DNA of 64,000 nucleotides. It comes from a virus. The notes beneath the pieces were generated by a model, which did no database searches, was not told where the DNA came from, and worked only from the letters and a program-made list of their open reading frames with translations. The position numbers and the translations under genes are program-made. Below are positions 6,319 to 56,262 of the stretch, piece by piece; position 1 is the first letter of the stretch; each line of letters begins with the position of its first letter. Where the stretch lies: positions 248,001 to 312,000 of IMG/VR virus record IMGVR_UViG_3300027985_000918. The stretch is one strand, 5' to 3'.

Positions 6319-6402
6319 TCACATCATCTCCAGGGCCAAGTTCTCAGAATCCTTGCGGGCCAGATACCCCCGTGCTACCCGGATGGCTGCATCCTTACCC
6401 AT
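6319..6402 (-). CDS. Candidate 27-aa mini-protein coupled to Baseplate_J
   Basis: A short frame, MGKDAAIRVARGYLARKD then 9 more residues, starts with an ATG that overlaps the TGA of the Baseplate_J gene (TGATG). It ends 12 bases before the GTG of the next gene. It fills the 95-base gap almost exactly and keeps the translational coupling seen elsewhere in the cluster. The peptide would form one basic amphipathic helix. No family is known. Coding is plausible but unproven at this length. Confidence 0.4.
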   Translation of the reverse strand: MGKDAAIRVARGYLARKDSENLALEMM

Positions 6403-9927: not shown

Positions 9928-11085
9928 TCACTTAAGCATCCGACTGGCCTCTGCTGGACTCAGGCCGGTCGATTCAAGTCCAAGGAAGAGGCCGTTCGAG
10001 CCCATCAAGGCAACGACCTCGGGCACTGTGAAGATGGTGGTCAGGTTGATCGGCTCCGAGGATGCGTTCTGTACCCACACATCGATCAGAAACGTCGTAG
10101 GGTCCTGTTCATGCGGGAGGACCTGGATACTCAGAACCGAATACAGGCGCTCCTTAGGGGTCACTACCTGTACCTCGGACTGAGACTTCTGGAGGGCCTG
10201 GAACCTGGAGAGGGCTCGCCGGATGTCGTCCTGAAGGGCTGCGGCTACGTTGCCGAGGGCCTTGCTCCCAATTCGAGATCGGAGAGTAGTCCCGTACCAG
10301 TTATGGTACGGATTGGACCCCCGGTCCGTCAACAGAATCTTGAGCGCTGCCTGCTGGAGAAGATCCTCGTTGTCCAGAAAAATGGGGCTCCCATCAACGG
10401 AAAACCTGTAGTCGTTCTCTACATAGGTAGCCCGACAACGGAGGCACCGGCGGGCGGGAACCGAGTAGGTAACCTTGAGGATGGGATTAGACTTGAGAGC
10501 AGTGACGAACTTGGGCACCCGATTCGTGATGGTGTCCGGGCGGACCTCCAAGGTCCACCCTGGGAACAAATTTCTTCCCCTGGCAGACCTCTGCCGGCCA
10601 TTGATTCCGGAAGCACCAAACCCCAAAGAAACTGCTGCCGTCCCCGTCACCCTCACGTAGCTGTCGGGACCTACCCGAGTCGTATCCGAGATGAGCAAAT
10701 GACCCCCAATGTCCTCCACCAAGGCAGTCGTGCTGAGCAAACCGAGCTGAGCCAGGCGCTTGATTACCTGGCTAGCCTTCCAGCGGACCTTTCCCTTGAC
10801 CCCCAGTGTCCCAGTAAAGGTCCCACCCGGAGTCGTAATGGTGAGGGTATCCTCGTTCTCAGTCAGTGTGAAGGGACCGGACTCAGTAGAAAAGAGCTGG
10901 GCCACCGAAGACAAACCCGTCGAGGGAATGACCAAGCCGGGATCGTCGTTCACCATGATCCGAACCGTCCCCGCAGATGCGATAGGTTGACGGGTCTGCA
11001 AAGTCCGGCGGTCACCCCCCAGACGTACCACTTCCTCCACCGTCAGATGGGGGCACGGCCACGAAAGAGCATAGTCCTGGCTCAT
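9928..11085 (-). CDS. gp25/GpW-like baseplate wedge protein with N-terminal IN-like module
   Basis: 385 aa. The C-terminal half (about residues 225-350) matches the gp25-like fold: a helix with N-E-D-L-L-Q-Q-A, then RGSNPYHNWYGTTL, a helix with DDIRRALSRFQ, and strands with LYSVLSIQV and TFLIDVWV. The N-terminal half is an addition: residues about 69-160 look like the flagellin/hook IN module (T-L-T-I-T-T-P-G-G to AAVSLGFGASG). A C-x2-C pair (CLRC, near residue 210) could be half of a metal site. In contractile tails gp25 starts sheath polymerisation at the baseplate, and the order next to Baseplate_J is the usual one. Start ATG at 11085; the leader contains TATAGGC copy b. Confidence 0.75.
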   Translation of the reverse strand: MSQDYALSWPCPHLTVEEVVRLGGDRRTLQTRQPIASAGTVRIMVNDDPGLVIPSTGLSSVAQLFSTESGPFTLTENEDTLTITTPGGTFTGTLGVKGKVRWKASQVIKRLAQLGLLSTTALVEDIGGHLLISDTTRVGPDSYVRVTGTAAVSLGFGASGINGRQRSARGRNLFPGWTLEVRPDTITNRVPKFVTALKSNPILKVTYSVPARRCLRCRATYVENDYRFSVDGSPIFLDNEDLLQQAALKILLTDRGSNPYHNWYGTTLRSRIGSKALGNVAAALQDDIRRALSRFQALQKSQSEVQVVTPKERLYSVLSIQVLPHEQDPTTFLIDVWVQNASSEPINLTTIFTVPEVVALMGSNGLFLGLESTGLSPAEASRMLK

Positions 11086-16953: not shown

Positions 16954-17189
16954 TAGCTACCTCCCCCGTGCTTAATCAGGGCGAGCTTCTGCAAGGCCTC
17001 AGCCTTCTTGCCTTCCCACTCTGCGAGCTGCTGCTCCAGGATGCTGCGAAGGCTAAGGAGTGCCCGAGCCTGCTCGGTGGCAAATGCTGGACGAAACGTA
17101 GTCCCCCCACCGGCATCCCCCCAGGCCCCAGCCTTCCGGCCAATCTTCTCCAACTCCTGCCGAGCCTCTTCGGGTGTCAACGGTTTCAT
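16953..17189 (-). CDS. Small coiled-coil protein (78 aa)
   Basis: It starts with MKPLTPEEARQEL, overlaps the end of the 3900-aa gene by ATGA, and its TAA overlaps the start of the 1013-aa gene (TAATG). The C-terminal half (SLRSILEQQLAEWEGKKAEA) predicts one long helix, probably a coiled coil. Tight coupling on both sides suggests a chaperone or small baseplate subunit for one of the two large neighbours. Confidence 0.65.
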   Translation of the reverse strand: MKPLTPEEARQELEKIGRKAGAWGDAGGGTTFRPAFATEQARALLSLRSILEQQLAEWEGKKAEALQKLALIKHGGGS

Positions 17190-26100: not shown

Positions 26101-28888
26101 CCTCACCCAACACCTGAAACGAGAACGCCCCCCCCTCGGACACCAGGAGCCCCCCTCCGATCCCTGGAGCATTCAGCAACGAGTTGCCGATGACGGAAGC
26201 AGATCCCAGGTCGATAGTTGTTGTAGGTTGCTGGAAAGTCGTGCTCAGAGAGCCTTCGGCCAGCCACAGGAAACGGCGCTCTGCGAAGTCGTGGAGGATG
26301 TCTTCGTAGTGAATGAGGGGCTTGTTGACTACCACCACCCCGTCCGGGTCTTCAATGGCGGTGACCAGGTTGAAGAACACCCCGTCCGAGTAACCCGCCA
26401 CATCTTGGAGGGGCGGATTCTGAAAGAACACGAAGGGGCCGGGCTGGACGGACTCCTGGACGATGGCGTCTTCGATACGGTCGAACGCCTTGAAATCGGG
26501 AATCCCTTTGGCCCTCCCCCGGTTCCTGGGACTGCGGTACAGCCCCAGGGCAACCCCGGAATCAGGTAGCCAGTTGTCCACTCCGCCCTGCGCCCGCCAA
26601 CCCGGAAGGAACCCGAGCTTGGCTGCCCCGGACAGATCCTTCACTGGCCCGCCCCATCCAACCTCCACCGTCCCCGTCGCCGGATCCCCCGCCTCCAGAA
26701 CGACCGACCCGTTGGAGGCATAGGCCCTACCCGTCCCAGAGATTGCGGCATTGATCGAATCAGCCACTTCCTCCGGGGTGAAGTAGTCCTTGTCTGGGTA
26801 GGCAGTCAACAGGGTGTTCGAGTTCCAAGAGTATCCCGACCCGTCGGTGCTGAAGTACAGCACCTCACCCCCCTCGAACCGGAACACAAACCGGGTCTTG
26901 GAGTACAAGCGGGCGGCCGTCGTGTGGGCAGAAGGCGTCAGGCTGGCCTGGAGGAAATAGGCAGCGTCGGCTCCTTTCTCCTTGAGGTCTGCACGGCTCA
27001 TCTTGAGCACCGACCCCAGACCATCGGAGAACTCACGGGAGATGTAGCAGACCCCCTTGGGGATGCTATGGGAGGTCGAGGGGAGGTCATCCTCCCGGTC
27101 CACCACCACCACCGACATGGCACCCTTGCGGGTGAACACGATGGTGTCCCCTACCGTGTCCTCCACCTGACGGATTCGTCCTTTGGCGTTAGCAGCAAAC
27201 GTATCGCCTCCAGGACGAACATCGGCCGGCGCCCCAGAACCCGCGGGGGCGACCCCTGTGCCGTCGGGGAAATCCATGACCCCCGAAACACCCAACCCCC
27301 GCTGCGGGCTGTTGAGAACGAACTCGTCGGGAAGGACGACAGCATCCGGGATGTACAGCTTCCCGCTGTTCTCCACAACCTGGGCGGGGGCCGTAGTGGG
27401 CTGAGGAAGGCCCGACAGACTGAGGCCGTCGTACACCACTTTGGCACCCAGATAATGCTTGTCGAACCGATCGGAGTCCGGATCCGTACTCCCCACCAGC
27501 CCCGGGGAGAACAGCAGCTTCCCTGTGGACAAAGATACCCCCACCTGGCCATCCGGCATCAACAAACCGGACAGCTCGGCGTCGTCCTCGACCAGGATGG
27601 GGGTCAAATACTTGCGTGACCCCACTCGGAGGAGGGGCCTATCCGTGGGAGACGGGATGGGGGTGATGAACAGAGTGTCGTGCGGGCTCAATTCCCCAAT
27701 GACGCCCGTACTTTCCGGAGCAAAATCACGATTGACGTACCAGACAGTCTTCCCGGCGTGCAGCTCGACGTAGGACGGGTTAAACACCAGCATCCCGTTG
27801 GTTAGGCCAACGACTCCGATGAGCTGGGGCTCCAGGGAGAAGTCAAAGCCTTCCTCCACCTGCTTGTCCAGGCGTACCCCGATCCCCAGAAAACTCCCGT
27901 CGGGGCCTGCTGCGGTACTGAGCCCATCCGGAGAGGACCCCAGACGGATCATGGCGTAGCTGTCAGAGACTGCCCCATTCCCGGGCAGGAAAAAACCGTT
28001 CTTGAGCCCCCTCGGTTTGGGGGATAGCTGGTAGACCTGATCGAACTCCAGACGGCCGAGGTCCCTCGGGGCATTGCCCTTGTACGGCTCCCAACGCTGG
28101 TTCTGCCCGTTCCACCCAAACCTAACTTGGTAACGATCGTTCCTGGTCCAGTAGAACCGGGGAGCAGCAATGGTGTACCGCACCTCGATGACTGTATCAC
28201 CTCGGGCTACACTGAGACCCCCCCCGAGGGCCGTAGAGATGTCACTCGCTACCAGACCGGATCCGGTAGGCCTGAAGATGTTGTCGTCCGTGAGGGTGAC
28301 CAAACCTGAGGAGGGGTCCGAATCCCCTCCCTGAGGCTGAACTACCAGGTATGGGATGTTTCCCTTGCGTCCGGAAGTAGGGTTCTCAGCATCCACCCAG
28401 CCGGCGTCGTCGTACTCCACATCCCCCCGGGCCACTACCAGGAACAGGATGCTCCCGATGCTGCGGAACCCATCGTCCTTGACGACGGCCTTTAGGGTCC
28501 CGTCTACCTGAGTCCCATACCCCGAAGGGATAGGCTGACCCTCGGGCCACGGATCCGGGTCATTGTCCGTGACCGTCAGGGAACCTTGGGGGATGATCCC
28601 CTCTCCCGTATCTACCCACCAGGCGGGGTCGTCGATAAGGGAGAGATTGGATGTGTTCTCCGCCCAGAACATGTACTCGACAGGGGTACTACCGGGGGAA
28701 TTGAGCACGGCCGTGCGGTACTGGTCCGCACGCACGTCCGCAAAGTCGGGGGCACCCAGAGTGTAGTCTGGCGGAAGGTCATCGGAAAGGGCACGGACGA
28801 CTCCACTGTCTGCGTCAGCCGTCTCGGGAGAGTTCGTCGGCGCAGACCGGGGGGGCCGGAGGACGTATCCTGAGAAGTCAAAACCCAT
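17186..28888 (-). CDS. Giant multidomain tail protein (3900 aa)
   Basis: One uninterrupted frame of 11.7 kb, ATG at 28888. It is almost wholly beta-rich and built from many short domains. Repeated strand-turn-strand units with N/D-P-x-x-G-x-(V/I)-x-(F/L) occur near 25005-25100, 25115-25200, 25230-25330 and 23830-23930. Flagellin-IN-like modules lie near 26600-26900 and 20650-20985. A helical segment near residues 1780-1860 (AIREAVKEAQANQAG, RAARVLLDYYNQAIMAFEQI) interrupts the beta domains. The last 40 residues form a charged helix (KRLAEAERVARLEESVEN). There is no signal peptide or transmembrane span. Its place between spike and wedge genes makes a baseplate-attached, fibre-like or cage-forming protein likely. 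Its length exceeds any usual myovirus tail protein. Confidence 0.75.
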   Translation of the reverse strand: MGFDFSGYVLRPPRSAPTNSPETADADSGVVRALSDDLPPDYTLGAPDFADVRADQYRTAVLNSPGSTPVEYMFWAENTSNLSLIDDPAWWVDTGEGIIPQGSLTVTDNDPDPWPEGQPIPSGYGTQVDGTLKAVVKDDGFRSIGSILFLVVARGDVEYDDAGWVDAENPTSGRKGNIPYLVVQPQGGDSDPSSGLVTLTDDNIFRPTGSGLVASDISTALGGGLSVARGDTVIEVRYTIAAPRFYWTRNDRYQVRFGWNGQNQRWEPYKGNAPRDLGRLEFDQVYQLSPKPRGLKNGFFLPGNGAVSDSYAMIRLGSSPDGLSTAAGPDGSFLGIGVRLDKQVEEGFDFSLEPQLIGVVGLTNGMLVFNPSYVELHAGKTVWYVNRDFAPESTGVIGELSPHDTLFITPIPSPTDRPLLRVGSRKYLTPILVEDDAELSGLLMPDGQVGVSLSTGKLLFSPGLVGSTDPDSDRFDKHYLGAKVVYDGLSLSGLPQPTTAPAQVVENSGKLYIPDAVVLPDEFVLNSPQRGLGVSGVMDFPDGTGVAPAGSGAPADVRPGGDTFAANAKGRIRQVEDTVGDTIVFTRKGAMSVVVVDREDDLPSTSHSIPKGVCYISREFSDGLGSVLKMSRADLKEKGADAAYFLQASLTPSAHTTAARLYSKTRFVFRFEGGEVLYFSTDGSGYSWNSNTLLTAYPDKDYFTPEEVADSINAAISGTGRAYASNGSVVLEAGDPATGTVEVGWGGPVKDLSGAAKLGFLPGWRAQGGVDNWLPDSGVALGLYRSPRNRGRAKGIPDFKAFDRIEDAIVQESVQPGPFVFFQNPPLQDVAGYSDGVFFNLVTAIEDPDGVVVVNKPLIHYEDILHDFAERRFLWLAEGSLSTTFQQPTTTIDLGSASVIGNSLLNAPGIGGGLLVSEGGAFSFQVLGEDYLLPNDGIPGNAVLITRYGDLALFGGRGAYSAGGSLFTDPAANFLEPSEEQATDTEGNPLFSGGAAVYLPVVREGYRLKLLSGDEAGSYLVESVSSGTELGVKPPFLAQALQAIPWELYRGYSEDVYDPAVVADQVYQNFSHLPDEPFKVNVLSPLGFVGGALTANVEGAVSRGRVISIRFGLAHDDGTNSAILTPLSREVLGAIANNLLDVPGVGSTRFTGIRYSLRVGADKFTPVHVGVFSDPVPAGAVEVLTQSVGVDPAGRIKFADDLLSRYAKARVTYQEEFRASADMVSGMAEYNPDSGLLNIGSADQISHAGKRVYFVEQMITENGLDVSLNPIAGTVGFQQPLQALQSVEVRYYQADMEGRKEGELVEEFLPVFVTKTEATRVNHFTFTFNTDSRTVDTRIDPTVFIGAMIQNFQGDDYILESPDDPGDPFKITFLSKTIPDHVPVQVSYAVLEANGGERSYTVSSAPVYRPPFFLKAGVDSFGLQGNRLADFFPGQLIRLGANCFYVKAVEYFPPRTTPLEERNPLNPVKPIVKAGNVTKVHIFPPTSREVGTRSPGHDVLTVISAGPVTTAVDPDGTNPVTTSAPAGFMQAVPLSEFPFEPVNKGQKTINFRGNLTQFAIAGHILEIGGYPFTIASAELNPEGTYTKITLTAPVETGLSMDNVSTVKLSYRPLYPPGVRTFLPLGPLVDTEGYELVLFGETDVNGNELPGRTLIPNIEYSLDPTTGVVELLEPVQAPLGPGQKLILSHTRLRTLSPTVQDGVVVEPRGFATYLYNTLPDRDNGLLGGLLQATYSFRSPDTYYFRIPTLTSFLAEAIREAVKEAQANQAGKGSLTTTTQGEENWDKGNTSLIWERRHLVDKDRAARVLLDYYNQAIMAFEQITETIDGRFVGDKDGKFRFFVGRGLEWPTPGYEDEITGVLQPKNLWSMVVNEADPSNDLIFLETDNLVEPTAATLVDGVLGGPYPDADRLQWLMDHQRMLVTNDVDDRVAASKRRPRIKLLPVYPYFSLQGGVDFKRMSSSHFLSRLFPTQAKAFFLTYPGIGADEATGDPGIYTYGRSIDGGIKRTTGSEIGLVSNPVLGGITNISDSALRPRRARARVWGYFPDGILQDAFDVGVPAADIVEPCMIVTQLPLSEVPVSPESGLLDVSRLISQGGDLADAEAGDPELALPGFVTGDQIFWGQPDGSTHIGQNVSLLSVFGTPVLDTLHVYDVQFGCLIRFADSSGTLLDNPNNILVGTEGILGTPLHEFPLEQGDTIYVSPTLGKGVEISDPPTIAELREMGSAIDIFRNGFDFSVKPDGRIVDTTLPSFDDPYFFGLKEIFGQKAPRPLSPLEGPVEFVYDRTLPLEFPALLGGSTDDDGDYAIPYLRSGNTELDRLGDASVMSNLFGVFAQSGGTYIYPDEIVGNDGEILDTSGNNFADVGTPFQGGPATKEAGVLMAGVDPFPAGVGEEALRPYDLLLMEVGQGTVPVGAEGLLNVAAVASPAAGVAFLEPPRFVTQTTPPVAPGGPTGSPVRYILNNAIVHVDGYVGDDPQNDPVSGCLLYEYDSNGDAVTDTLVLDFSSITQLALNDGTAAGTGNLNSIWSAAGAKANNKITVRFLARDDVLITNTPSGNPMPNGGDELFRIVIQGTDVTVTETVSGLPGLTALGLSAVFGTTDPAPLGAPFEQNRHIVITGASVGSLMDHLLLGLPVAQGSVQVLPGCAAGDQVVISGVVFTAVNGGAVAALQQFDDVAGSGSAIATATSLAAAINDPASQALIQAAAPLNISAVASAVGDLVGLQANHPGDVGELVVTENTGGLRLVVTPMAGDSTSTWFVPYTQLNPLAAGYRRALKYEYDVAIDIDTYNGWAAPRGESDTAYIDEDRLTFHEVIDFRKARLRGSVHPHPGSSTSLETDLLVQEVTCVAGVSSTINRNVNGGAPLTFIGKTAADIANELAGGTWSSPVGGSIKAVAFEGILDANVGATDIKFSAIPSSDVGPLGTICTGSGFMESENNADLSAVQFTLVEGRVMDPTINSGALARVEPGDVLVVKRSNDGTHRACTKAGTYLVKHAVGENDAINHVLQVTLSCTAGGGSGWITEVYPRVVGWDSGTGVLTVTSTSRFPGVGNRVFICRDLTKLSAATAAEYAQALWSGNITFKTPTTFTLNDLRDATGTPVAATDLVNTTGLMVAGHDSLTVDVRGNGLPDSSSVVGHHSLTALQEVIHGFRLVTFEGPGGAVVTYDATAGQITDVGGGGAIEVAEAARVSANQFHADADPVVYAHVAGSIDLSAVPDLDWGSIYDPLGHSAGQWVAALLPNTVVYLGDPTGPTPGFWAQSGIFLEPSFPTPVNSYSFTQARLVERTAAPYPLVGVRDFSDYNSSGVPYANPESVQFEVRRIRRFHRLFNDLGDQFGPLRYAYEIRRGRITTYSTTAKQFGLVEADGFGMTYNADVVTAPLAPDVWNGGETGLLGTNLGPFNSVDVNIHAGDMFRLLDEDGALIEQVPIVGVLSEVELKLEAPGLQTPKATLEANGGMRFEIWLRQAPVPHEQSAEQLLELITFKEVTRTDADYATERGGYVEAVTADYDSVVNRMRDDKNTGSWASKGVLRGDIVILDPTPKIPQSGERGARPIGDVGAYISGGPQRTGYDPGEPNILDDNRGFYRVTDIDGATLVVDGTCTLAGARVGGTTTDVVFPENATYQPILGYSILPTISGSALTGDGREGQMDLRPTKVRETIGGYETYTGDTHSIRPFSYRIIRPSQLFSDEAVDLVLMNRERVLSWIQELRSIMGGRKDGTYWDFQNELHAHDVGLPNDPLDGLGVLGNVSVTSLIGQVNISPYLNSEDCLSILDRRFWVLDRRLDSLMPDTNIGCRTYDGVNPFPTAGDVDLAQPVGAYTSFSADANGGSSVRPVLPERVDIVLDIEDRFRPTRYAWLAYRTDTVRGTLQRIDLFDEELPKRLAEAERVARLEESVENAS

Positions 28889-39277: not shown

Positions 39278-42200
39278 TCACCCCACTCTTCCGGCCATGA
39301 CCCGCTTGAGCTTAGATTGGTTCTGGGTCCACCCGTGGGGGCTGGCGTACTCGTGGTAGTTGATGTACACGTCACCGCCCCCTCCCCCGCCTCGACTTAG
39401 CGGACCACCAGCCTTGCTAGCGACCACCTGCACATCATCCTGAGTGCTAATCCTCTGTCCGTACACACCACCTTTACCAATGTGCATTAGGTAATCTTGT
39501 GCCACACCAGCAGCTTCAAACACGGGGAGGCCCATCTCCGTGAACTTCTCACGGACGGACTTACCGCCGACAACCGTGTCCAGATGCTTAGCAATCTCTG
39601 CAGGCATCTCCCCCGACTCCCGATATTGGGTTGCCAAACCCAAAAAATCGTCCCGGAGGAGTCCTGTCTCAACTCCGGAGAGTCCTGCCGCCATCTGGGT
39701 AGCCATATTCTCCGCAGTCAGCATTGTGGCCTGCTTTCGCCACTCCTCCCCAATAGCCTTGGGTGCTTCCCCGCCCTTCCCATGAAGCCTTTGGGTTCGA
39801 CGCCAGTCCTCCCTCCCATAAGCCATCAAAGCATCTTCCTGGGCCTTCTTGATCATGTCCTCACCGGACATTGGCGCAGTGCCAACACTGGCCCCCCTAC
39901 CCCCCTGAGCCCCCAAACCCACGGTTGCCAGCAGCCCAAAGTGCCTTTCCCGTGCCTGGGACTGACGAGCAACCAGCTCTTCTTCGGACCCCACCCCCTC
40001 CCGAAGAAGCATTCTCTGCACGCCTTTTTTCTTGATAGCGGAGATCTGCTCCTTGGACATACCAGCTTTCCCACGGAGAGCCTTTTCGATACTCTTGGGA
40101 CCCACACCAGCCTCAATATCCCTCCTCAGCTCACTAGCCCCCTTGTCCGTAAACCACCCGCTCTTGTTATAGCTCTGAGCTTCCCGCAGATGCTCCTCCT
40201 TGACCGCCTTACGGCCACGGAGAACCCTAAGCTCCTCAGCTTTAACCTTCAAGGCTGCCTGCGCCCTTTCTCTGTCGGGTCCCGAGGAAGCGTTCATTTC
40301 CTTACGAAGTTCACTCATCTCCTGGGAAATACCCCGCTCCTTCGCCCTCATGTCTCTAATCTCACGGGTATATCCGGAAACAATCCTCTCCCTCTCAGCT
40401 TTCTCACCGCCGCTAAGTCCACCCATCCAAGATGAGATCCGCTCTACCGAGGTATAGATCTGCTCCAGCCAATACTCCACGCCTCTCTCCAGAAGAGACG
40501 CAATATCCGTAGTGTTGGCGGCGATCTCTGCCGCCAACTTGATGTCGGCAGGTACCGCCTGCTGTGCGGCCTCCTTAAACACCTGACCCTGGGTCTGAAT
40601 ATAGTCCTCCAGGCTCTTGAGGCTGCTAGTACCCCACTCGATCTCTCCGGTGCTTTCATTGAACGAAGCGGCCAAGACACGCCCCTGATCGTCAATAGCA
40701 GCCCCGAACGCCTTAGCCTGCTCTCTCTGCTGCTCCGGAGTAACCTGCTTACCCTCCATCTTCCTAAGAGTGTTCCAGTTGCCATACATGGCCTCTGAAA
40801 TCCGCAAAAGTTGCTCCCTCTCCTCACCCGTAACCCCAGCCACACCCTCAAACCCCATCATCTCCCGGGGGTTCATCATGTGGAGTGGCTTTCCGATAAT
40901 AGTTTGTCCGTGAGCCATCTTGGCTGCCAACTTTCCACCCATGTCCAGAGACCCCATCCGGACAGCCCTAGCACCCCGACCACCTACAGCACCCTCGGCA
41001 ACGTCCATCAAATTCGTAAGGGAGCGAGTTAGGTCGTGCTGTCCCGTAAGACGCATACTAGCCAGCAAGCCTTCTCTCTGCTTACGGCCCATACTCCCAA
41101 GTCTCTTGGATAGACCGGCTCCCGTTGCAGTATCCAAGTCCGAAAAACCGAGGAGACCCATAATTCGGGCCTGTGCCCCCTTATCCTGCATGGTTCTGAG
41201 TTTCGAGATGAAATCCGTTCCGGTAGCCTCAGCAGACCTAGTGAAAATGCCTTTGCTCCCCCTAGTGAGCATGTCCCTCTTCCAACGGTCCTGCATGGAC
41301 TCCCCAGCAAACCCCTTGGTAAGCTGCTGAAGAAAATCACCGCCCGTCTTAGCACCGAGAACCTGACCAAGACGGATGAGCAAACCACCGGCCTCTTCAA
41401 GACGGACGTTGTACATGCCCATTCCGGATGTGGCCTGAAGAATCATGCCGTAGAATCGCTTTACTCCGAACCCAGACTCCTTGGCAGCCATCGTAACTCC
41501 GGACAATCCTTCGTTGATGTACTGAAGGTCAGCCCCCAGGTCCTCCATCCACGACCCCATATTCCCGGCCATGTCTTGTGCAGAGACCCCCAGGAGCTTT
41601 GAATAAGCCAGAGCGGATTGGGTATACTCCCGCAACCTCTCCATCTCATCATTGAATCCCGCAGCCTCCGCCCTCATCTCCCTCAGAGTCTTCCCCGCAT
41701 CAGCATAGGCACCAAGGATCACCAAATGGTCCTTAGCGGTTGTCCCCCAGATGTTGTTGAAGGCAAAGGCCCCTTCCCCTGCGGTAAATGTCCTTCGCAC
41801 ATCGGCGATTTTTTTGCCTACGTCGTCGAACACACTCCCTAGTTCAGCCCCAGCTATCCCGCTTTCCAGAATAGTCCGGTTCAACTGCTTCATCTGGGAT
41901 TCTGCCGAGATGAAAATGGCCACCAAAGCTGCTACGGAGCCCACCAAGGCCCCCACTGCCAAGATGTAGGGACCGAGCTTAGACAAAAGGCCACCCACCT
42001 CACCCAACGCCTTGGCAAACCCTCCGCTTCCCTTGGACCCTGCCTTGATTGCTGCTCCCCCAGCCGCCTGGACCCCTTGCCCCACCCCCTTGATGGCACC
42101 AGAGAAATCTCCCCCCCTGAGCTGCTCGAACAGCCCCTTGGCGCCGTGAGCACCCGCCCCGAGGAGACCGCTAACCCCTCGGTACCCCTGAGCTGCTTGC

Positions 42201-42571
42201 AAAGCGTCCTTCCGCCGCTGATTGATACGAGCTAGCTGCCGCTGCTCAGCCTTGAACCGTTTCTCCATGGCCTGAGCCTGAATTTTGGCAGCCTTGGTAG
42301 CCCCATCCTTCTGAGCTTCCTCGATCAGCCTGGAGAGCTTAGTGTATGTGTCCGTCAACCCCCGAAGATTCTTGCCCGAAAACCCCGTGCGGAGGGCATC
42401 CCCGATGGTTTGACCGAATGTAGATTCAGCCTTCTTCTGGACCCGGGACCACTTGGAGAGGAAGTCCCGGTCGTCAAACGCCATGACCTTCTTGATCTGC
42501 TTGGCGACGGCATCGGCCCCGGCAAGCTCAAGATCTGCAATCAGCCGAATGACGGTTTCCTGGTTACTCAT
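39278..42571 (-). CDS. Tape measure protein
   Basis: 1097 aa; the ATG overlaps the TAA of the preceding gene (TAATG). Residues 1-140 are charged helices with heptads (KAAKIQAQAMEKRFKAEQRQ). Residues about 195-230 are a hydrophobic stretch rich in Gly/Ala/Val (GPYILAVGALVGSVAALVAI) as found in many tape measures. Residues about 740-850 form another long coiled coil (EISxEMSELRKEMN-type heptads). If fully helical, 1097 residues at 1.5 angstrom each would span about 165 nm, a rough upper guide to tail length. Its position after the tube and two chaperone candidates is the standard order. Third codon positions look less GC-rich than in neighbours. Confidence 0.85.
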   Translation of the reverse strand: MSNQETVIRLIADLELAGADAVAKQIKKVMAFDDRDFLSKWSRVQKKAESTFGQTIGDALRTGFSGKNLRGLTDTYTKLSRLIEEAQKDGATKAAKIQAQAMEKRFKAEQRQLARINQRRKDALQAAQGYRGVSGLLGAGAHGAKGLFEQLRGGDFSGAIKGVGQGVQAAGGAAIKAGSKGSGGFAKALGEVGGLLSKLGPYILAVGALVGSVAALVAIFISAESQMKQLNRTILESGIAGAELGSVFDDVGKKIADVRRTFTAGEGAFAFNNIWGTTAKDHLVILGAYADAGKTLREMRAEAAGFNDEMERLREYTQSALAYSKLLGVSAQDMAGNMGSWMEDLGADLQYINEGLSGVTMAAKESGFGVKRFYGMILQATSGMGMYNVRLEEAGGLLIRLGQVLGAKTGGDFLQQLTKGFAGESMQDRWKRDMLTRGSKGIFTRSAEATGTDFISKLRTMQDKGAQARIMGLLGFSDLDTATGAGLSKRLGSMGRKQREGLLASMRLTGQHDLTRSLTNLMDVAEGAVGGRGARAVRMGSLDMGGKLAAKMAHGQTIIGKPLHMMNPREMMGFEGVAGVTGEEREQLLRISEAMYGNWNTLRKMEGKQVTPEQQREQAKAFGAAIDDQGRVLAASFNESTGEIEWGTSSLKSLEDYIQTQGQVFKEAAQQAVPADIKLAAEIAANTTDIASLLERGVEYWLEQIYTSVERISSWMGGLSGGEKAERERIVSGYTREIRDMRAKERGISQEMSELRKEMNASSGPDRERAQAALKVKAEELRVLRGRKAVKEEHLREAQSYNKSGWFTDKGASELRRDIEAGVGPKSIEKALRGKAGMSKEQISAIKKKGVQRMLLREGVGSEEELVARQSQARERHFGLLATVGLGAQGGRGASVGTAPMSGEDMIKKAQEDALMAYGREDWRRTQRLHGKGGEAPKAIGEEWRKQATMLTAENMATQMAAGLSGVETGLLRDDFLGLATQYRESGEMPAEIAKHLDTVVGGKSVREKFTEMGLPVFEAAGVAQDYLMHIGKGGVYGQRISTQDDVQVVASKAGGPLSRGGGGGGDVYINYHEYASPHGWTQNQSKLKRVMAGRVG

Positions 42572-45450: not shown

Positions 45451-46284
45451 TTACACGTTCAGGCTGATCGCCCCACCACCCCCGACACCGCCACCTACCT
45501 GAACAGAAGAGGCGAACGGGTTGCCAGCCTCGATGGCATTCTCCGAGAACCGGATAGACCCGAGCTGACCGATAGTGGGGTCATTGCCGGTTGCCAGGAA
45601 CTCTCCGTAAACGCTAGCAAAATCGTGGACGTCGGAAATCATCACATCCCCAGACTCCATGATCATGCCGCTATCCTTGGCGAAGGTCGTGCTCCACGTC
45701 GTGAACCAACACGCCTCGTAGATGGTGATAACGGCGCTGTGCCCACGGTTGTCGCCCGGGAAGTTGGAGTTGTCCGGAGTGACCTGGGGAAAACCGATGG
45801 CCGAGACACCGCCATCGAATTGACCAGGGGTACCGGAACGCCCAACGTTAGCAACCTGGAGATCCGCATCCACGAGGGTCGAAAACACGAGCTGCTGCTC
45901 GATATCGAACGGCCACTTGTGGTGCTTGAGCGACCGGACCGGGCCATCCACGCCAGAGGCGTAGCCCGTGGCCTGCCAGAGGTTGCTCAGGTACATGAGA
46001 GCCCTCTCGAAGCTGGCGCTCATGGGCTCGGTCACCGACGGGACCAGCTCGGCCACCTGATCACCGAAGCCGACCCCCCGAACCGGCTCTACGGTACGAC
46101 TCTCGTTCGGGTTGAAGCTGGAGACCACGCCCATCTGGTGGAGAGCGGTCGAATCCCCATAGGCAGGGGTCAGAAGGCGCACCTTCTGGGAAACGGCCGT
46201 CCTAGTGTTCGGGGAGGTCCCGAAATCATAGACGTAGCTAGTCCCCTGGAGCCCGTTCTGGGGGTTGTTGTCAAGGTTCGGCAT
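45451..46284 (-). CDS. Candidate tail tube protein
   Basis: 277 aa. The start chosen is the ATG at 46284 (MPNLDNNPQ), which has GGAGG six bases ahead; the in-frame extension upstream (to 46395) has no such site and runs through the TATAGGC element. The protein is beta-rich and free of charged patches, with strands such as AVITIYEACWFTTWSTTFA followed by DVMISDVHDFASVYGEFLA, and a Gly-rich C-terminus. Length and place, upstream of two chaperone candidates and the tape measure, fit a tube subunit. Unlike most myoviruses, it is separated from the sheath gene by a 1.8-kb plus-strand block. Confidence 0.65.
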   Translation of the reverse strand: MPNLDNNPQNGLQGTSYVYDFGTSPNTRTAVSQKVRLLTPAYGDSTALHQMGVVSSFNPNESRTVEPVRGVGFGDQVAELVPSVTEPMSASFERALMYLSNLWQATGYASGVDGPVRSLKHHKWPFDIEQQLVFSTLVDADLQVANVGRSGTPGQFDGGVSAIGFPQVTPDNSNFPGDNRGHSAVITIYEACWFTTWSTTFAKDSGMIMESGDVMISDVHDFASVYGEFLATGNDPTIGQLGSIRFSENAIEAGNPFASSVQVGGGVGGGGAISLNV

Positions 46285-46346
46285 CTCAGTCCTCCACGAG
46301 GGGTATGGTGAGGGCACAAAGGCTCTCCGCTCACACTTGTGTGGGC

Positions 46347-46353
46347 TATAGGC
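46347..46353. promoter_or_regulatory. TATAGGC element, candidate promoter (copy c)
   Basis: The plus strand reads GGGCTATAGGCCCGC in the divergent gap, 63 bases upstream of the tail tube start (minus) and 58 bases upstream of the helix-turn-helix gene (plus). GGGC-CTATAG-GCCC is nearly palindromic. Part of the recurrent TATAGGC set. Confidence 0.35.
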
Positions 46354-46410
46354 CCGCAATCGAGATCCGGCTACTTGACTTGAATGAGAGAGCACCCAGG
46401 ATGAAAGTTG

Positions 46411-48175: not shown

Positions 48176-51100
48176 TTACAAACTTGCCCGGAGGTGGAAC
48201 TCAAGGGTGATGTACAGCAACGGGAACACCGGGCTGTAGTAGGCCACCACCTCAGCCACCGTCGGATCGTCCGCAGCCACGTTGGCCTTGACACCCGTGT
48301 AGGCGGAGATGATCTGCTGCTTCACCAAGGACTTCAGCATCATGCTCAGCCGGCCTTCGATCTGGGTGAGGATGCCGGGAAGAAACTTGATGCCGATGTA
48401 CCGCTCCAGAACCCCACGGCTCTGCCGCTGAACCTCGTCAGCGATCATCTGAACCGTCGGGAGCTTCAGGAGGCGGTAGCTCTCCTGGGACGGCTGGATG
48501 GTCGAGAGACCGTGACGGACCCGCAGGTACGGGGGCCGCTCTTCCAACACGATGACGCCCTTGGTTGCTACCTGGTTCATCTCGACGGCGTCGAGGCGCC
48601 GACCAAGCTGGCTGAACCCGACAAGGTTCCGTCCCGTCCACGGGGTCGCCACATCCACGCTCGGAGACACAACGGAACCGGCCAGGGCGGCGGCAATCAT
48701 CGTGCCGTCCACCAGGTGCTCCTTCGTGGATCCGAAAGCATTCGTGAGCTGGATAACCGCCACGTCCGGGTAAACCAACCGCATACGGGAGCTGTTCAGC
48801 GTCTGAGCCAAACTCATGGCGTTCTCGGGGGTCTTACCCGCCGACATGCCAATGATGCTCGTCCGCTCGCTCTTGTAGCGGATGGAGGACTGGATGCTGT
48901 TGGACCGGCTCAAGAGCTGATACAGCTCCGTGGAATCACCCCTCAGCGGGACGATGATGTCCGGGTTCACCCGACCCGGCAGCACCCCTTCCAGAGCCTC
49001 GATAGCCGCCCGGTAGCTCGTCACCGAAGCATAGCTGCTGTCGGTGTCCCGAACCACCTGCTTGATCCCCAGGAGAACGGCCCCGTTCAGGGTCGCCAGG
49101 AACGCCGCCAAGGAGACCGGATTGTCCGGGTGAATCGTGCCGTAGGCCGCCTCCACCGACGACAACTTCGTGTAGAAGGCCGTGGAGAAGTCGTCCTTCT
49201 GGTACGTGTACGTGACGTAGTACACGTCCCCGTTCAGAGGCTCGTTCCCCCCTCGCTCATAGGTGCTCACAACGGCCGTGTCACCCACCGCCATGCCCAG
49301 GGTGTTTGCCACCTTCAGCTCCAACCCCTTGAGCGCCAGAACCGGGAGGTTGGCGTCCGTGGTGAAAGTGCTGCTGACAGCGAACTGGAACGTGGCATTG
49401 ACCCCGGTGGGGTAGTTCACCCAGGGGCCGGTCGGGTTGCTGCTGTAGCCACGGGGAAGCACAGTGAACGTGAGTCCCGTGACAGAATCCCGGTAGGTCT
49501 GGCCAACCACACCGTCAGATCCAGTGCCGTTGTTCAGGACGGAGTCATTGGCAGAGCCAGATCCGTTCGGCTGGTTCGACACGACGAAGAACCCGTCGAT
49601 GCCCGCCTCACCGACCGCACCGTCCAGGCTCTCAGCGTTGACCCCCGTTCCCGGAGCCAGCCAGGAGTCCGTGACCACCGAAGCCACCGTCGGGTCACGC
49701 AGCTCGACGATGGAGCTGGTACCCAGGGACTGGCTCAAGAGGAACAGGAAATCGTTCCCAGCAGAGTCCTCAATCACCGAGGCCATCCCGAGCGTGGCGA
49801 ACATCTCGTTTGGATTCGGATTGACTGCCGTGAAGTCGAGTGCCCAGGTGGCGAACGTGCTGTGGCGGTTCTCATTCAGGGCCGACACCAGGGTACGGGC
49901 ATCGGGCAGCTCCCGCTGGGAGAGATCTCCCACCGTGAGCCCGAGAACGCTGGCAGCGGAGCCACCCGTGACCTCAACCTTGGAGAATACGTCGTACCGG
50001 GCCGATGTGAGGCCAAGACCCGCACCAACCTGGTAGACGATGCCGTTGGCGAACACTGCGGCGGCCGAGGCGCCGAACACCGTCGTAGCGGCGGCGATAG
50101 CGTCAATGATCTGGTCAAGCACCGAACCGTTGCTCGTCCCCGAAGCAGGGCCGAGGTCCGTCGCCGTGCCAGCCGCCGAAGAGGTGAACTGGACAGTGAT
50201 CGGGATGCCGTCGATGTTGATGACCAGCTCGTCGTTCGCCGCCTGGGAACCCGTTCCGTCGTAGAACACGACCTCGGGCTCAGATGTGGCAATGTCCTGG
50301 CCGCCCGTGAAACCGACCTGGCTCTCCAGGTAGGCAGGAACCACGGTGGAAGGACCACCCGCACCAAAGTCTCCTGTGGAGAGAGAGAAGCGGTCGAGAG
50401 CCGTACCCGCTCCCACCCGAAGCTCCATCTGGGCGACTTCGGACTGGGAAAGATCCCCACCAACCACCGACGGGATCAGGCGGTTGCGGAGGATAACCCG
50501 GTCGTACAGAGCACCGGATGCCCCGGCCACCGAGATGGTCTTCATCACGTCGCCAGCACACACGACGTGGGCCTGGCCTCCGCCTACGGCTGCCGCCGTC
50601 GAGAACCCCAACAGCTTGGCGAGGCTGTCGGCATCGGCAATGCCGTTGTTGATGAAGGTGAAGAACGCTTGGGCATCATCACCCGCAGCCCGGCATTTGA
50701 CCACGATGCGGCCGGAAGAGTCAGCCTCGACCACGAAGCCGGCACCGTCGAAGGCTGCTGCCGCCCCAACCCATCCCCCTGCCCCGTTCAAAGCAGCCTG
50801 TAGAGCAGCGGCGAGCGCTGCCGGACTGGTGTAAGGGCCAGCGGCCAAAGAGATAACCGCCGATGTGTAGGTACCTGCGGAATCTCCCGTGTACACGAAA
50901 CGGATGTCCGAGAAGGCCGTCAGATCCACCGGGCCGTCGATGACGGTGGCTCCCTTGTACTGAGCCATCGTGTCCGGATTGTACAGGCGCATCCCGGACC
51001 CGCCACCCACGTCCGACGCTGCTCCGGTCCAGGCTGCCACAGTGGCGATTCGGGTGGTCGAGTTGTAGTCCGTGATCGTGCGGACATCGCCCGCACCCGC

Positions 51101-53494
51101 AGCCATCGCCGGGATGAGGCTCACGTCACCGACCACGACATTCCAGCCAACGAAATACCCGTTGATGCTGCTACCGGGAACCGAGGCTGGCACCCGGAAC
51201 GTGGTGGCCGAGCCACCAGCATCCGAGGTGAACTGCACACCGTTGGCAGCCTCATTCACCGAGTCGTCCAGATCGGACACGTCGGAAGCCGTCTGAGCCG
51301 GGATGATGACCGGAATCTCGACCCCGTCGATGTAAAGGATCAGGTCCTCGTCGGTCGCCAGGGTGTAGCTCTGACCAAGGGTAGCTCCGGTGCCACCGTC
51401 GTAGTTGATCTCACCGCTGACCAAGTTCGCTGGGACACCGCCACCGTGGGTGGTCGGGTCGAGCAGGCTGATACCGGCCAGGCCAGCGTCCAGCTCCGTA
51501 TTGTCCAGACGGATGCGAACCTGGTCCGACTCATTCGGGATGAACTCGTAGGGGCCGTACCCCGGAACCGAGTACATCGCCTGAGTGGCGTCCTTGGACT
51601 CGAACTGGACCGTCACCACCTCGTTGATGGGGCCAGTGAACTCGTCGCCGGACAACCCCTCGAACCGGGCATCGGGAGTCAGCTCGGAACCGCTGGGCCA
51701 CTCCAGGGTCACTCCCGTGAGGGAGCTTCCCTTAGTCGTCGTGGAGAACGCAGCGTTGTAGATGGAGTCCCCGGCCTCATCGGTGATGGTGTACTGGCCC
51801 GTGCCACTGGCACCGATGAGGCGGGCAGTGAGGGTGAATTCCCCATCGGTCAGGGTGTTGTAGTAGAACGAGGCGTAGACCGTGGCACCCGTCGGGACGG
51901 ACTCGGCTAGCTCGATGATGTTCCCCTCGACCTTGGTCACCGTAACGGCACCCCGGTCCAGAGCGTCTTGGACGCTGTAGCCCCAAAAGGCGTTGACCAC
52001 GTCAGGCCGGTTGGTCGGGAGGTCGATGCGGCCGTTGGAGACCGTCTGGAACAGGCTGGTACCCAGAGGGGTGTTCCGACCATTACCCAGGGTCGGGGAG
52101 AACGGCAAGGTGAATTGGGTCTTGCTCTCGAAAGCGGAACCTCCGGAGGACAGAACCACCGGGGAGCAAGGGCTCATGAAGGTCTTGTCATCGACCAGCG
52201 TACCGCTGACCTGGGTCTCGTTGAACAGCTCAGAGCCCGAACTAGTGGTGTCCGCCTCGACCGTCCAGGCCGTACCCCAGAGGATCTTGTCGTCCTTCAA
52301 GACGAAGTCGGAACCCTGGTTGAACCCAACACCGTCGGGGACCTCACCAAGAGAGGTGACATCGACCACATTGTTGTGGGCAAGGTAGTCGAACGTGTTC
52401 TGCCAGGAGTTGAACCAGTAGGACACAAGGACCGTGGCGCCCACCTTCGGGGCCGTGGGCAGGGTGACCGCCCGAGTCGTCCCATCCACGCTGGTCGGAA
52501 TGACCTGAGTGCCGTTCACAAGAACCGTTACCTTCGAGGTGTCGGTCGTGGTGACGCCGCCATTGGTGCCGTCCACGATGGGTCCTTGGAACGTATAGAA
52601 CGTCTTCCGCCGACTGGTGGTCTGACCGCTCAGGAGACCGAGAGCGGAGTTGGCCGAACCGGCCCCCACCGTCACGTCGTTGGTCGCTGTCAGGCTCAGG
52701 GCACTGTGGCCGAACTGGTTCAGGAACGTGCTGGCCGTCAGGGTGCCCAGAGCTGCCGAACTGATCAGGTTGGCTACCTGCTTCATGGTATACGTGCCGG
52801 GGCTCAGCACAGATGTGTACTCCGTGCCGTCCACCGTCACGACGAACTCATTGTTGCCCGGGGTTACCACAGCACCGTTGGCATCAAGAGCATCCGCCCG
52901 CAGAATCACCGTCTCGGTACCCGGGGTTTGGGCATTTACGTCCTGGATGCCGGAGATGGCCCGGATGAGAGCCGGGTCCACGGACACCTGATCGGACAGA
53001 TCGTCCGTGATGTAGGTGTCGGTTCGGTTGAAGTAGTAGGTGACCCGCACGTCGGCATCGGCTGCCGGGGCCTGGGCCAACTCGACAATGCCCGTCAGGC
53101 CGTTCACCGACAGCACCACGATGGGGGTGCCGTTGATGGTGACAGAGACATCGGAGCGGCTGTAGGACACCGTCCCAGTACCGTCTCCGGTCACGATGGG
53201 CAGCTCACGGACCTTCAGCTTGGTGCGGACCCCGTCCCAGTTACCGACAGTCACGGCTCCCGCAGAGGAGATGGAGACCACGGCTCGGCCAGTGGCGTCC
53301 TCCTTGACACGTCGCTGGTCGATGTCAGCCGAAGACCCACGGACCACTTCCAGATTCCGCTGAATCAGGAACTCATTGCCTTCACCAATGAAAACGGGGA
53401 TTTTGAGGGTGTCGAGATTGCCCGCAATGGGGTTCTCGTACAGAGTTCGGGTGTACACGCTCGGAGGGGCGTACTGCTCGCCGGGGAAAGCCAT
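48176..53494 (-). CDS. Giant contractile tail sheath protein (1772 aa)
   Basis: The start chosen is ATG at 53494 (MAFPGEQY), eight bases after GAGAGG; a TTG six codons earlier overlaps that site. The first 60 residues have the sheath N-terminus (P-P-S-V-Y-T-R-T, then T-L-K-I-P-V-F-I-G-E-G). The last 350 residues (48176 to about 49250) are the conserved C-terminal sheath fold, with GRVNPDIIVPLRG, SERTSIIGMSAGKTPENA, TPWTGRNLVGFS and GRLSMMLKSLVKQQII. About 1300 residues between are extra beta domains: DUF2460-like motifs near 53018-53152, 52397-52540 and 51854-51955, and flagellin-IN-like modules near 52619-52849, 50590-50915 and 49930-50250. Usual sheaths are 450-700 aa. The additions should decorate the outer tail surface. 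Confidence 0.85.
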   Translation of the reverse strand: MAFPGEQYAPPSVYTRTLYENPIAGNLDTLKIPVFIGEGNEFLIQRNLEVVRGSSADIDQRRVKEDATGRAVVSISSAGAVTVGNWDGVRTKLKVRELPIVTGDGTGTVSYSRSDVSVTINGTPIVVLSVNGLTGIVELAQAPAADADVRVTYYFNRTDTYITDDLSDQVSVDPALIRAISGIQDVNAQTPGTETVILRADALDANGAVVTPGNNEFVVTVDGTEYTSVLSPGTYTMKQVANLISSAALGTLTASTFLNQFGHSALSLTATNDVTVGAGSANSALGLLSGQTTSRRKTFYTFQGPIVDGTNGGVTTTDTSKVTVLVNGTQVIPTSVDGTTRAVTLPTAPKVGATVLVSYWFNSWQNTFDYLAHNNVVDVTSLGEVPDGVGFNQGSDFVLKDDKILWGTAWTVEADTTSSGSELFNETQVSGTLVDDKTFMSPCSPVVLSSGGSAFESKTQFTLPFSPTLGNGRNTPLGTSLFQTVSNGRIDLPTNRPDVVNAFWGYSVQDALDRGAVTVTKVEGNIIELAESVPTGATVYASFYYNTLTDGEFTLTARLIGASGTGQYTITDEAGDSIYNAAFSTTTKGSSLTGVTLEWPSGSELTPDARFEGLSGDEFTGPINEVVTVQFESKDATQAMYSVPGYGPYEFIPNESDQVRIRLDNTELDAGLAGISLLDPTTHGGGVPANLVSGEINYDGGTGATLGQSYTLATDEDLILYIDGVEIPVIIPAQTASDVSDLDDSVNEAANGVQFTSDAGGSATTFRVPASVPGSSINGYFVGWNVVVGDVSLIPAMAAGAGDVRTITDYNSTTRIATVAAWTGAASDVGGGSGMRLYNPDTMAQYKGATVIDGPVDLTAFSDIRFVYTGDSAGTYTSAVISLAAGPYTSPAALAAALQAALNGAGGWVGAAAAFDGAGFVVEADSSGRIVVKCRAAGDDAQAFFTFINNGIADADSLAKLLGFSTAAAVGGGQAHVVCAGDVMKTISVAGASGALYDRVILRNRLIPSVVGGDLSQSEVAQMELRVGAGTALDRFSLSTGDFGAGGPSTVVPAYLESQVGFTGGQDIATSEPEVVFYDGTGSQAANDELVINIDGIPITVQFTSSAAGTATDLGPASGTSNGSVLDQIIDAIAAATTVFGASAAAVFANGIVYQVGAGLGLTSARYDVFSKVEVTGGSAASVLGLTVGDLSQRELPDARTLVSALNENRHSTFATWALDFTAVNPNPNEMFATLGMASVIEDSAGNDFLFLLSQSLGTSSIVELRDPTVASVVTDSWLAPGTGVNAESLDGAVGEAGIDGFFVVSNQPNGSGSANDSVLNNGTGSDGVVGQTYRDSVTGLTFTVLPRGYSSNPTGPWVNYPTGVNATFQFAVSSTFTTDANLPVLALKGLELKVANTLGMAVGDTAVVSTYERGGNEPLNGDVYYVTYTYQKDDFSTAFYTKLSSVEAAYGTIHPDNPVSLAAFLATLNGAVLLGIKQVVRDTDSSYASVTSYRAAIEALEGVLPGRVNPDIIVPLRGDSTELYQLLSRSNSIQSSIRYKSERTSIIGMSAGKTPENAMSLAQTLNSSRMRLVYPDVAVIQLTNAFGSTKEHLVDGTMIAAALAGSVVSPSVDVATPWTGRNLVGFSQLGRRLDAVEMNQVATKGVIVLEERPPYLRVRHGLSTIQPSQESYRLLKLPTVQMIADEVQRQSRGVLERYIGIKFLPGILTQIEGRLSMMLKSLVKQQIISAYTGVKANVAADDPTVAEVVAYYSPVFPLLYITLEFHLRASL

Positions 53495-53530
53495 CTTCGT
53501 ACCTCTCTTCAAGGTGGTCAGTTTTCCAGC

Positions 53531-54168: not shown

Positions 54169-55023
54169 TCACGTTTCACCGTACCCGAAATCGTGCTTGA
54201 TCTTCTCCACGTCAAGGTGCAGTCCCCCATCCCACACCAGATACCGCTTGCCCAGGAGAAACAGAAGTCGGGCAGCCAATGCGGCTGGCAAAAGGGTGAA
54301 CGTCCCAAACCCAAACGAGTTCATCAAGAACCCGATGGCACTACCTGGCAGGGAAGACAACAGATCAGACAGGGACAATGCGCCTGTGAGGGCATCCGTC
54401 AGCGAGTGGATATCCCACTCGAACTCCGTCACGTTCATCCAGATCCAAATGTAAACGGCAAGCATCAACACCCTGGACATGGCTGGAGCGTACTTCCGCA
54501 GCCAGTGATCGAACTGGTCTACCTTAGGCTTGACCGACGACTGCACCCACTTCTTGAATCCCGGCAGCTTGTCCATCCATTGGGAGATGAGGCTGTTGAC
54601 GCTCAGTAGCTTGGATTCTTCCAACGTGAACAGCTTAAGGGGGAAGGTGCTGAACATCTTCCCCACCGCCTTGCGAAGGGCCTGATACCCCTGCTTCGCC
54701 AGGTCCTTGATGGCCCCGGGCAGCTCCAAAAGGGACTTGATCCCCAGCCTGTCCTTGAAGGCCTCCCAGAGCTTCTTGCTCTTGGAGAACACCTTGCCAA
54801 GCTGCTGGAGCTTCTGACGAATATTCCCGAAGGCCACCTTGCCGTGAGGGAGGAGGAACTCCCCGAACGCTTCCAGAACCTCGGGGGTGATCTCCTGGAA
54901 GTGGGCCGTCTTGGCACCTACGGAGGAAATACTGTGATGAGCCTCCCGGGCGGCCATTCGGATCGTGAATCGAACCGCCAGGCGCTGGGCATCTCTCATG
55001 AGGGTATCGTTCATCTGACTCAC
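54169..55023 (-). CDS. Helical protein with C-terminal hydrophobic segments (284 aa)
   Basis: The GTG at 55023 overlaps the TGA of the preceding gene; an ATG three codons later is an alternative. Residues 1-180 are basic amphipathic helices (LWEAFKDRLGIKSLLELPGA, KQGYQALRKAVGKMFSTF). Residues about 195-215 (MSRVLMLAVYIWIWMNV) and 250-270 (FTLLPAALAARLLFLLG) are hydrophobic enough to span a membrane. Placed among neck genes. It could be a minor virion protein that enters the membrane, or a virion-carried effector; the family is not recognised. Confidence 0.55.
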   Translation of the reverse strand: MSQMNDTLMRDAQRLAVRFTIRMAAREAHHSISSVGAKTAHFQEITPEVLEAFGEFLLPHGKVAFGNIRQKLQQLGKVFSKSKKLWEAFKDRLGIKSLLELPGAIKDLAKQGYQALRKAVGKMFSTFPLKLFTLEESKLLSVNSLISQWMDKLPGFKKWVQSSVKPKVDQFDHWLRKYAPAMSRVLMLAVYIWIWMNVTEFEWDIHSLTDALTGALSLSDLLSSLPGSAIGFLMNSFGFGTFTLLPAALAARLLFLLGKRYLVWDGGLHLDVEKIKHDFGYGET

Positions 55024-56228
55024 CGAATCAGGGCGTAGCCCTTACCGACCTGGTAGTAAGGGTCCCGGACTGTGCTTAGACCCAGATGGGTCATGGCCTT
55101 GATGTTGCCTTCCTGCCCTACCAGTTCCTCATCCGAGAGCCCGGCGATGTAATTGGCCTGCTCCAGGGTAAGAGGGGTGACCTGGCGAAGGTTGACGTTC
55201 AGCGGGACGTAGGCAGCCCACTCCGTCTCCACTGTGAGTGAGAAGCTGGAGTTGAAGATGTAGTCTTCCCCCTGCTCATCATAAATCTCTTCGGACTCCC
55301 CCCCGATGGAGATGTTCATGATCTCCAGCCCCTCCGTGGAGAGCTGCCCCCTAGCGGCGCCGAACAAATACATGACGGAGTTGTCCGCAATCTCCCGCTG
55401 GTCAAACACGTCCCGGGCGAACACCTCGAAGTCCATCGTCATCTCCCACCGGCCCCCGTACTCCAGGGCGGAGGGCCGTCGGGTCGTCTCCACTACAACG
55501 GCGAGCTGGTCCCCATTGAACACCCTCCTCCCGAAAGCCAGGACTACCCCTGGAATGGCCGTGTTGTTGGCATGCCTCTCGATGATTCGGTGGGGCCCCG
55601 TGCTTTCAGTCACATAACGGTAGTCTGCCTGGAGCCACCTGCCCCCCGACAGAGGGGTAGTCAGGTTGATGACACCCGTGGGCGATCCCGAGTCGGGGTC
55701 CGTCTCCAAAGTATAGTTGGACCCCTCCACCATCATGTACCGGGCGGGCATCTCGAATAGCCGGAGAGTCCCAGCCACAGGGGAATTTGCAAGGACTCCC
55801 GTGGTGGTGTCCGATAGCATGACCTGTTCGTGGTACACGTTCAGGAGGGGGTCCACATAGAAGACCATGTTCCCGTCTTCCTCCATCACGTCCAGGTAGT
55901 AAACCCCAGGAGGACTGGGAAACACCCCGCCGTTTCTCTGGATCTCCCGGATGTCCTCCCGAACCCACTCCACCGAGTACCCCGGCTTGTTGTTCACCTT
56001 AGCCCAGTGGCAATGGCTGTACACAACCCCCCGATAGTTGTCGGCCGAGAGAGGGATATGGCTTCCACCACCCGACTTGACCACGATCCCCCGCTGGGGA
56101 CGATCCTTGAAGCTGTACTTTCCCTGGATGTTGTCGGGCAAGTCTGAAAACTTCGGGTGGGTCAGCCAGTACCTTCGCAGCTCCTGAATGAAGCGGCGGG
56201 TTAGGTAGTCGGTTAGCTGGAAAAACAT
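55020..56228 (-). CDS. Neck/tail-completion candidate (402 aa)
   Basis: The start chosen is ATG at 56228 (MFFQLTDYLTRRF), with GGAGG five bases upstream, rather than the GTG four codons earlier that includes that site. The N-terminus is helical (RRFIQELRRYWLTHP), then a beta-rich body with a DUF2460-like motif near 55605-55720 (DSGSPTGVINLTTP, then WLQADYRYV). The C-terminal part has FEVFARDVFDQREIADN, typical of phage proteins joining the neck to the tail tube. Role inferred from place between the co-chaperonin and the sheath. Confidence 0.55.
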   Translation of the reverse strand: MFFQLTDYLTRRFIQELRRYWLTHPKFSDLPDNIQGKYSFKDRPQRGIVVKSGGGSHIPLSADNYRGVVYSHCHWAKVNNKPGYSVEWVREDIREIQRNGGVFPSPPGVYYLDVMEEDGNMVFYVDPLLNVYHEQVMLSDTTTGVLANSPVAGTLRLFEMPARYMMVEGSNYTLETDPDSGSPTGVINLTTPLSGGRWLQADYRYVTESTGPHRIIERHANNTAIPGVVLAFGRRVFNGDQLAVVVETTRRPSALEYGGRWEMTMDFEVFARDVFDQREIADNSVMYLFGAARGQLSTEGLEIMNISIGGESEEIYDEQGEDYIFNSSFSLTVETEWAAYVPLNVNLRQVTPLTLEQANYIAGLSDEELVGQEGNIKAMTHLGLSTVRDPYYQVGKGYALIR

Positions 56229-56262
56229 GGTTGCCTCCACGGGTCCTACTACGGGACCTGCG

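Follow-up and report, generated by a model that had tools for sequence, protein, structure and literature searches.

The window analysed here, a stretch of 64,000 nucleotides taken from a virus record of 402,383 bp, encodes a tail sheath protein of 1,772 aa (184.7 kDa) in which about 1,300 residues separate a conserved N-terminal arm from a conserved C-terminal core. We consider it probable, with some reserve, that this anatomy goes together with an adhesive and stabilising coat around the tail. The arm and the core, together about 430 residues, would fold, polymerise round the tube and contract like those of other sheaths, and the intervening residues would be strung together as beta-rich domains at the site of the outermost sheath domain. 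This insert grew as domains were added step by step and two modules were duplicated, with A now in three copies and B in two to three. The outer layer may bind the host surface or matrix weakly at many points, which would help the phage to dwell before irreversible binding, and may also stabilise the tail.

The sheath frame runs uninterrupted for 1,772 codons on the minus strand (window 53494..48176), exactly where a first-pass annotation of this DNA had placed it. An upstream TTG could extend the frame, but it stands before the ribosome-binding site, and the start M-A-F-P-G is also seen in the sheaths of relatives. The main features of the gene are:

48176..53494, minus strand: giant tail sheath gene, 1,772 aa (open frame, profile match, AlphaFold fold match)
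53502..53507, minus strand: ribosome-binding site GAGAGG, 7 bases before the ATG (read from the sequence)
53345..53494, minus strand: N-terminal arm and start of the sheath core, residues 1-50 (conserved in 34 of 34 aligned rows)
48179..49309, minus strand: C-terminal sheath core, residues 1396-1772 (phrog_2839; fold match to solved sheaths)

The protein is a tail sheath, an assignment already made in the first-pass annotation and of which the profile match, the fold match and the place in the operon leave us practically certain. A profile search with phrog_2839 (tail sheath) found the C-terminal core, matching residues 1421-1767 with an E-value of 1.2e-23. A Pfam search of the window protein gave no sheath family match, and PF17482 (Phage_sheath_1C) matches 11 of 30 family members (best E 1e-8). 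The N-terminal arm carries the motif YAPPSVYTRT, comparable to YLPPGVYTRI in Mycobacterium phage Phrappuccino, and both arm and core are conserved in all 34 aligned rows, with the inserts lying between them. An AlphaFold model of residues 580-1772, based on an alignment of 32 natural sequences, recovered the sheath fold with a mean pLDDT of 81.8; residues 1-579 are represented by their counterparts in a separate model, that of a 922-aa relative. Compared with solved structures (Foldseek against PDB), the model of residues 580-1772 matches tail sheaths best (E 4e-12), led by those of phage 812, Desulfitobacterium (3hxl) and phiCD508, with pyocin and T4 lower down. The complete short relative (L050, 922 aa, both termini present, with the N-terminal 28 residues modelled at low confidence) likewise matches solved sheaths, and for both models the best 50 PDB matches listed are sheath or tail-sheath entries. 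The phage G sheath gp178 heads the matches among predicted viral structures (E 1.5e-26). As neither phmmer nor profile searches of PDB sequences turned up a sheath, the link to solved sheaths rests on fold comparison.

The placement of the gene in the tail operon is canonical, with neighbours conserved in relatives:

55020..56240, minus strand: tail terminator-like protein, 406 aa (alignment to Tunturi_5 ORF324, annotated as tail terminator)
45451..46395, minus strand: probable tail tube, 314 aa (named from conservation and its position beside the sheath)
39278..42571, minus strand: probable tape measure, 1,097 aa (named from its helix-rich, proline-poor composition and position)
9928..11085, minus strand: sheath initiator-like protein, 385 aa (PF10934, E 5.1e-5, under the curated cut-off)
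6402..9917, minus strand: baseplate J-like protein, 1,171 aa (PF04865, E 2.7e-19)

The order common to the relatives is terminator-like gene, zinc ribbon, sheath, probable tube, two helix-rich genes that occupy the usual place of the tail chaperones, and probable tape measure; the sheath initiator-like and baseplate J genes lie further along. A frame of 3,900 aa (28888..17186, minus strand), which as a tape measure would imply a tail near 585 nm, was rejected for this role on account of its beta-rich composition, the helical frame of 1,097 aa being the better candidate.

Several other genes of this region deserve mention in their own right. The 3,900-aa beta-rich protein of the tail operon (17186-28888, minus strand) has no confident family match, and part of it resembles an extra block found in a 2,488-aa sheath. 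Close upstream of the terminator-like gene lies an actin homologue (56970-57998, minus strand; PF25216, E 2.2e-69) of the ‘volactin’ family named from Haloferax volcanii, which is kept in this place in many giant-sheath relatives at 50-85% identity. A calcineurin-like phosphoesterase gene (47221-48078) sits on the plus strand between the sheath and tube genes, and a probable baseplate hub of 1,748 aa (31894-37140, minus strand) may contain a peptidase-like stretch and has a weak endolysin match (phrog_2649, E 0.04).

The first-pass annotation had described the conserved termini as split by roughly 1,300 beta-rich residues, and this description stands: the core begins at about residue 1396, and the part of the intervening stretch that was modelled (within residues 580-1772) is mostly beta. 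By profile-to-profile comparison (hhalign) of slices of 110 residues, we found that the insert contains two kinds of repeated module:

53015..53248, minus strand: module A copy 1, residues 83-160 (hhalign against copy 2, best E 9e-24)
52397..52630, minus strand: module A copy 2, residues 289-366 (hhalign)
51839..52135, minus strand: module A copy 3, residues 454-552 (hhalign against copy 2, E about 1e-10)
52598..52888, minus strand: module B copy 1, residues 203-299 (hhalign, profile searches)
51242..51373, minus strand: partial second module B, residues 708-751 (hhalign probability 93%; weak profile match, E 0.006)
49901..50275, minus strand: module B copy 3, residues 1074-1198 (hhalign, profile searches)
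49559..51769, minus strand: most variable part of the insert, residues 576-1312 (mostly missing from shorter relatives)
L091:4294-9744, reaching window 1-1744, minus strand: fibre-like protein with module A, 1,816 aa (profile match)

For module B copy 3 the independent evidence is that of the hhalign slices, because the search profile itself included this copy. The slice comparison puts the copies of A at 83-157, 289-363 and 454-551, and those of B at 205-299, 708-751 and 1081-1198. Whole modules come and go: relatives L047 and L050 lack module B copy 1, and beyond the window’s clade the stretch 721-1070 is missing or shortened. The 2,488-aa relative has one extra block of 828 residues after the position of window residue 941; this block is internally repetitive and bears some resemblance to the window’s 3,900-aa protein. 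As module A was also matched in the fibre-like frame listed above (E 1.5e-8), from this phage’s own genome, it seems to serve as a common unit of the tail. DUF2460 and DUF4815 gave weak matches in the sheath family, below the Pfam cut-off. In the 2,488-aa sheath itself (L036:1674-9140, on a 619-kb viral contig), the 828-residue block carries GDTVTIDG-type repeats.

A length of about three times the usual, as first noted for this gene, is correct with respect to T4 gp18 (659 aa) or phage G (579 aa). The longest entry in a published list of 153 sheath proteins has 1,283 aa (PMC9230969), and the window’s sheath exceeds it 1.4-fold. The accompanying remark that no sheath had been described at this size thus holds against that list, but the enlargement of jumbo phage sheaths by extra domains is a known trend (PMC9230969). 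Multi-domain sheaths are already known; a sheath of this size, a clade that lengthens in steps and duplications within the protein are more than we found described, in a search mainly of literature open without subscription.

Related genomes, whose sheath lengths the first-pass annotation had proposed to compare, code for sheaths that are equally long or longer: 1,767 aa in a 223-kb contig, 1,768 in one of 436 kb, 1,779 in one of 497 kb and 2,488 in one of 619 kb. Complete frames of 1,765-1,779 aa are found in several contigs and one of 1,863 aa in a single contig, and sheaths of 2,484-2,488 aa in the 619-kb contig and two smaller ones. A wider scan yielded at least 547 relatives, the complete frames among the best 80 ranging from 916 to 1,644 aa. 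In a tree built from the sheath core alone, by a quick method that leaves some forks open, the outgroup sheaths measure 486-579 aa, those of early-branching groups 916-1,068 and those of the Tunturi clade 1,198-1,310; a large clade has mostly 1,409-1,550, with 1,571 and 1,863 beside it. The window’s clade (15 rows, support 100) has 1,633-1,779 aa, the frame-shifted L022 excepted, and a lineage inside it 2,484-2,488. Since lengths step with the clades, sheath length is a lineage trait that changed in steps, and the short outgroups point to growth as the direction. Genome size alone does not set sheath length, as phage G, with 498 kb, has a sheath of 579 aa.

Concerning the position of the insert, the cryo-EM reconstruction of phage G shows residues 120-218 of gp178 as the outermost domain, the remainder lying inside (PMC8570332). 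Residue 185 of gp178 aligns to window residue 1376, which places the insert where that outermost domain stands; by homology to the phage G reconstruction, it very probably faces outwards. From this position, each subunit would bear about 140 kDa outwards (138 kDa for residues 51-1395) and the whole tail would be thickly clad. As a tape measure accounts for 0.15 nm of tail length per residue, the candidate of 1,097 aa would give a tail of about 165 nm with some 240-260 subunits, and hence an outward insert mass of about 33-36 MDa per tail. The sheath subunits of phage G rise by 41.5 angstrom along the tail (PMC8570332), and the tail of Tunturi 5 measures 167 nm (PMC11924767). The many hundreds of copies supposed in the first-pass annotation are therefore probably too high, a figure nearer 250 being suggested by the candidate tape measure.

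What the insert does was approached from its families, its rate of change and its relatives. No carbohydrate-binding or adhesin family was found in it above the Pfam cut-off in the window protein and 30 relatives; the sole carbohydrate-related match, to CE2_N, was marginal (E 0.0034) and came from one of the 30 relatives. Between the window’s sheath and that of L017, identity is 32-36% in the middle of the insert and 68% in the core, the insert’s middle thus changing roughly twice as fast. There was no sign of positive selection on the insert, every computable dN/dS being below 1, as under purifying selection, in a test that is weak at these divergences, with synonymous sites near or past saturation in several pairs. 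Electron microscopy of the isolate Tunturi 5, whose sheath has 1,204 aa, recorded both extended and contracted tails (PMC11924767), and enlarged sheaths can thus still contract. Evseev et al. proposed the same two roles, binding and stabilisation, for added sheath domains (PMC9230969).

On balance, this evidence speaks for a coat that binds surfaces with low specificity and also stabilises the tail, among other reasons because a module is shared with a fibre-like protein, and a purely structural role is a close rival. Adhesion of the insert to the host, taken as a claim by itself, would fall just short of an even call. A bolder reading, which we consider possible but doubtful, is that the whole tail is an adhesive organ in which the sheath, rather than attached fibres, would bear a dense, modular and evolvable coat and still contract. 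That the coat domains would then be surface-binding, related to those of tail fibres and present at up to 2,488 residues per subunit is equally speculative.

The purely structural alternative supposes an armour: the inserts of adjacent subunits would lock together to stabilise or shield the tail, and would take no part in host binding. It agrees with the purifying selection on the insert, with the stabilising role being one of the two proposed for added domains (PMC9230969), and with the failure to find known binding families among the 30 relatives. However, the faster divergence of the insert’s middle and the coming and going of modules between clades would not be expected of tight interlocking, and module A also occurs in the fibre-like protein, so that we regard this alternative as tenable but rather unlikely. 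The insert may otherwise be the product of accretion at an outermost site that tolerates insertions and duplications, most of the extra mass having no strong function. Growth was indeed stepwise, with internal duplication, and phage G manages on 579 aa with a 498-kb genome, but long sheaths are kept clade-wide under purifying selection at a high cost of synthesis, and we judge accretion improbable.

Cleavage after synthesis, which would leave a mature sheath of ordinary size and the insert as a separate virion protein, has as its one point in favour that some jumbo phages process their head proteins (PMC13282480). The N-terminal arm and the C-terminal core form one fold, however, so that two cuts followed by re-association would be required, and module boundaries differ between relatives; this makes cleavage highly improbable. 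Still less credible is a sheath-derived adhesin or minor tail protein accompanied by an ordinary sheath elsewhere, for which we found no supporting point. The core profile detected a single sheath core per record in the window’s and in 16 others (309-619 kb), some of which may be incomplete; an additional sheath of normal size was rejected for the 402-kb record, as neither the core profile nor phrog_2839 nor PF04984 found one; and the operon position fits the main sheath. A frame error or gene fusion, which the first-pass annotation had named as what would undo its reading, is refuted, and so is a chimeric assembly, as the frame is open throughout and 33 distinct relatives from viral contigs of many independent samples, read and aligned, keep long uninterrupted frames in which the parts follow in the same order, the sheath gene being frame-shifted in two other contigs only (L022 and L029, one shift each), where these are most simply errors of those contigs’ sequence.

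As the sheath is a repeated and tightly packed motor part, a limit on its size would be expected. A clade in which sheaths lengthen stepwise between about 900 and about 2,500 residues, next to outgroups near 500, shows what cargo a contracting lattice may carry, and suggests that contractile tails have a site tolerant of very large insertions. The length series represents a natural set for asking what the extra domains do, and Tunturi 5, as a member of the clade cultured on Tunturiibacter psychrotolerans, makes their function testable.

Among known systems, the sheath gp178 of Bacillus (Lysinibacillus) phage G (579 aa) shares 27% identity over the C-terminal 390 residues, but has one outer domain of about 100 residues where the window has about 1,300, and phage G carries a separate outer coil round its tail (PMC8570332). 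The sheath of Tunturiibacter phage Tunturi_5 (PP885688; 1,204 aa) belongs to the same clade, with 33% identity over residues 1-575 and 1313-1772 and operon pieces in common with the window, but about 200 residues replace the window’s 576-1312. The uncultured phage LR745208.1 (485 kb) has the same gene order and a sheath of about 1,650 aa with 43% identity over 83% of the query, which is about 120 residues shorter and without part of 721-870. With the hairy jumbo myovirus CBB (PMC5259590), the likeness is functional at most: its tail is covered lengthwise by projections with a supposed adhesive role, but these whiskers are about 119 nm long and no whisker gene is named in that report. The closest general description is that of the type 3 multi-domain sheaths (Evseev et al. 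2022, PMC9230969), which likewise have a core conserved at the N- and C-terminus with beta-rich domains added, these being mostly Ig-like, and whose size correlates with genome size. The type is defined by three or more domains, and the window’s sheath has at least five recognisable modules besides the core. The added domains of type 3 sheaths lie away from the tube, and the window’s insert would, by homology to phage G, lie outward as well. Unlike those listed, however, the window’s sheath has internal module duplication, and it and its 2,488-aa relative reach 1.4 and 1.9 times the longest entry (1,283 aa).
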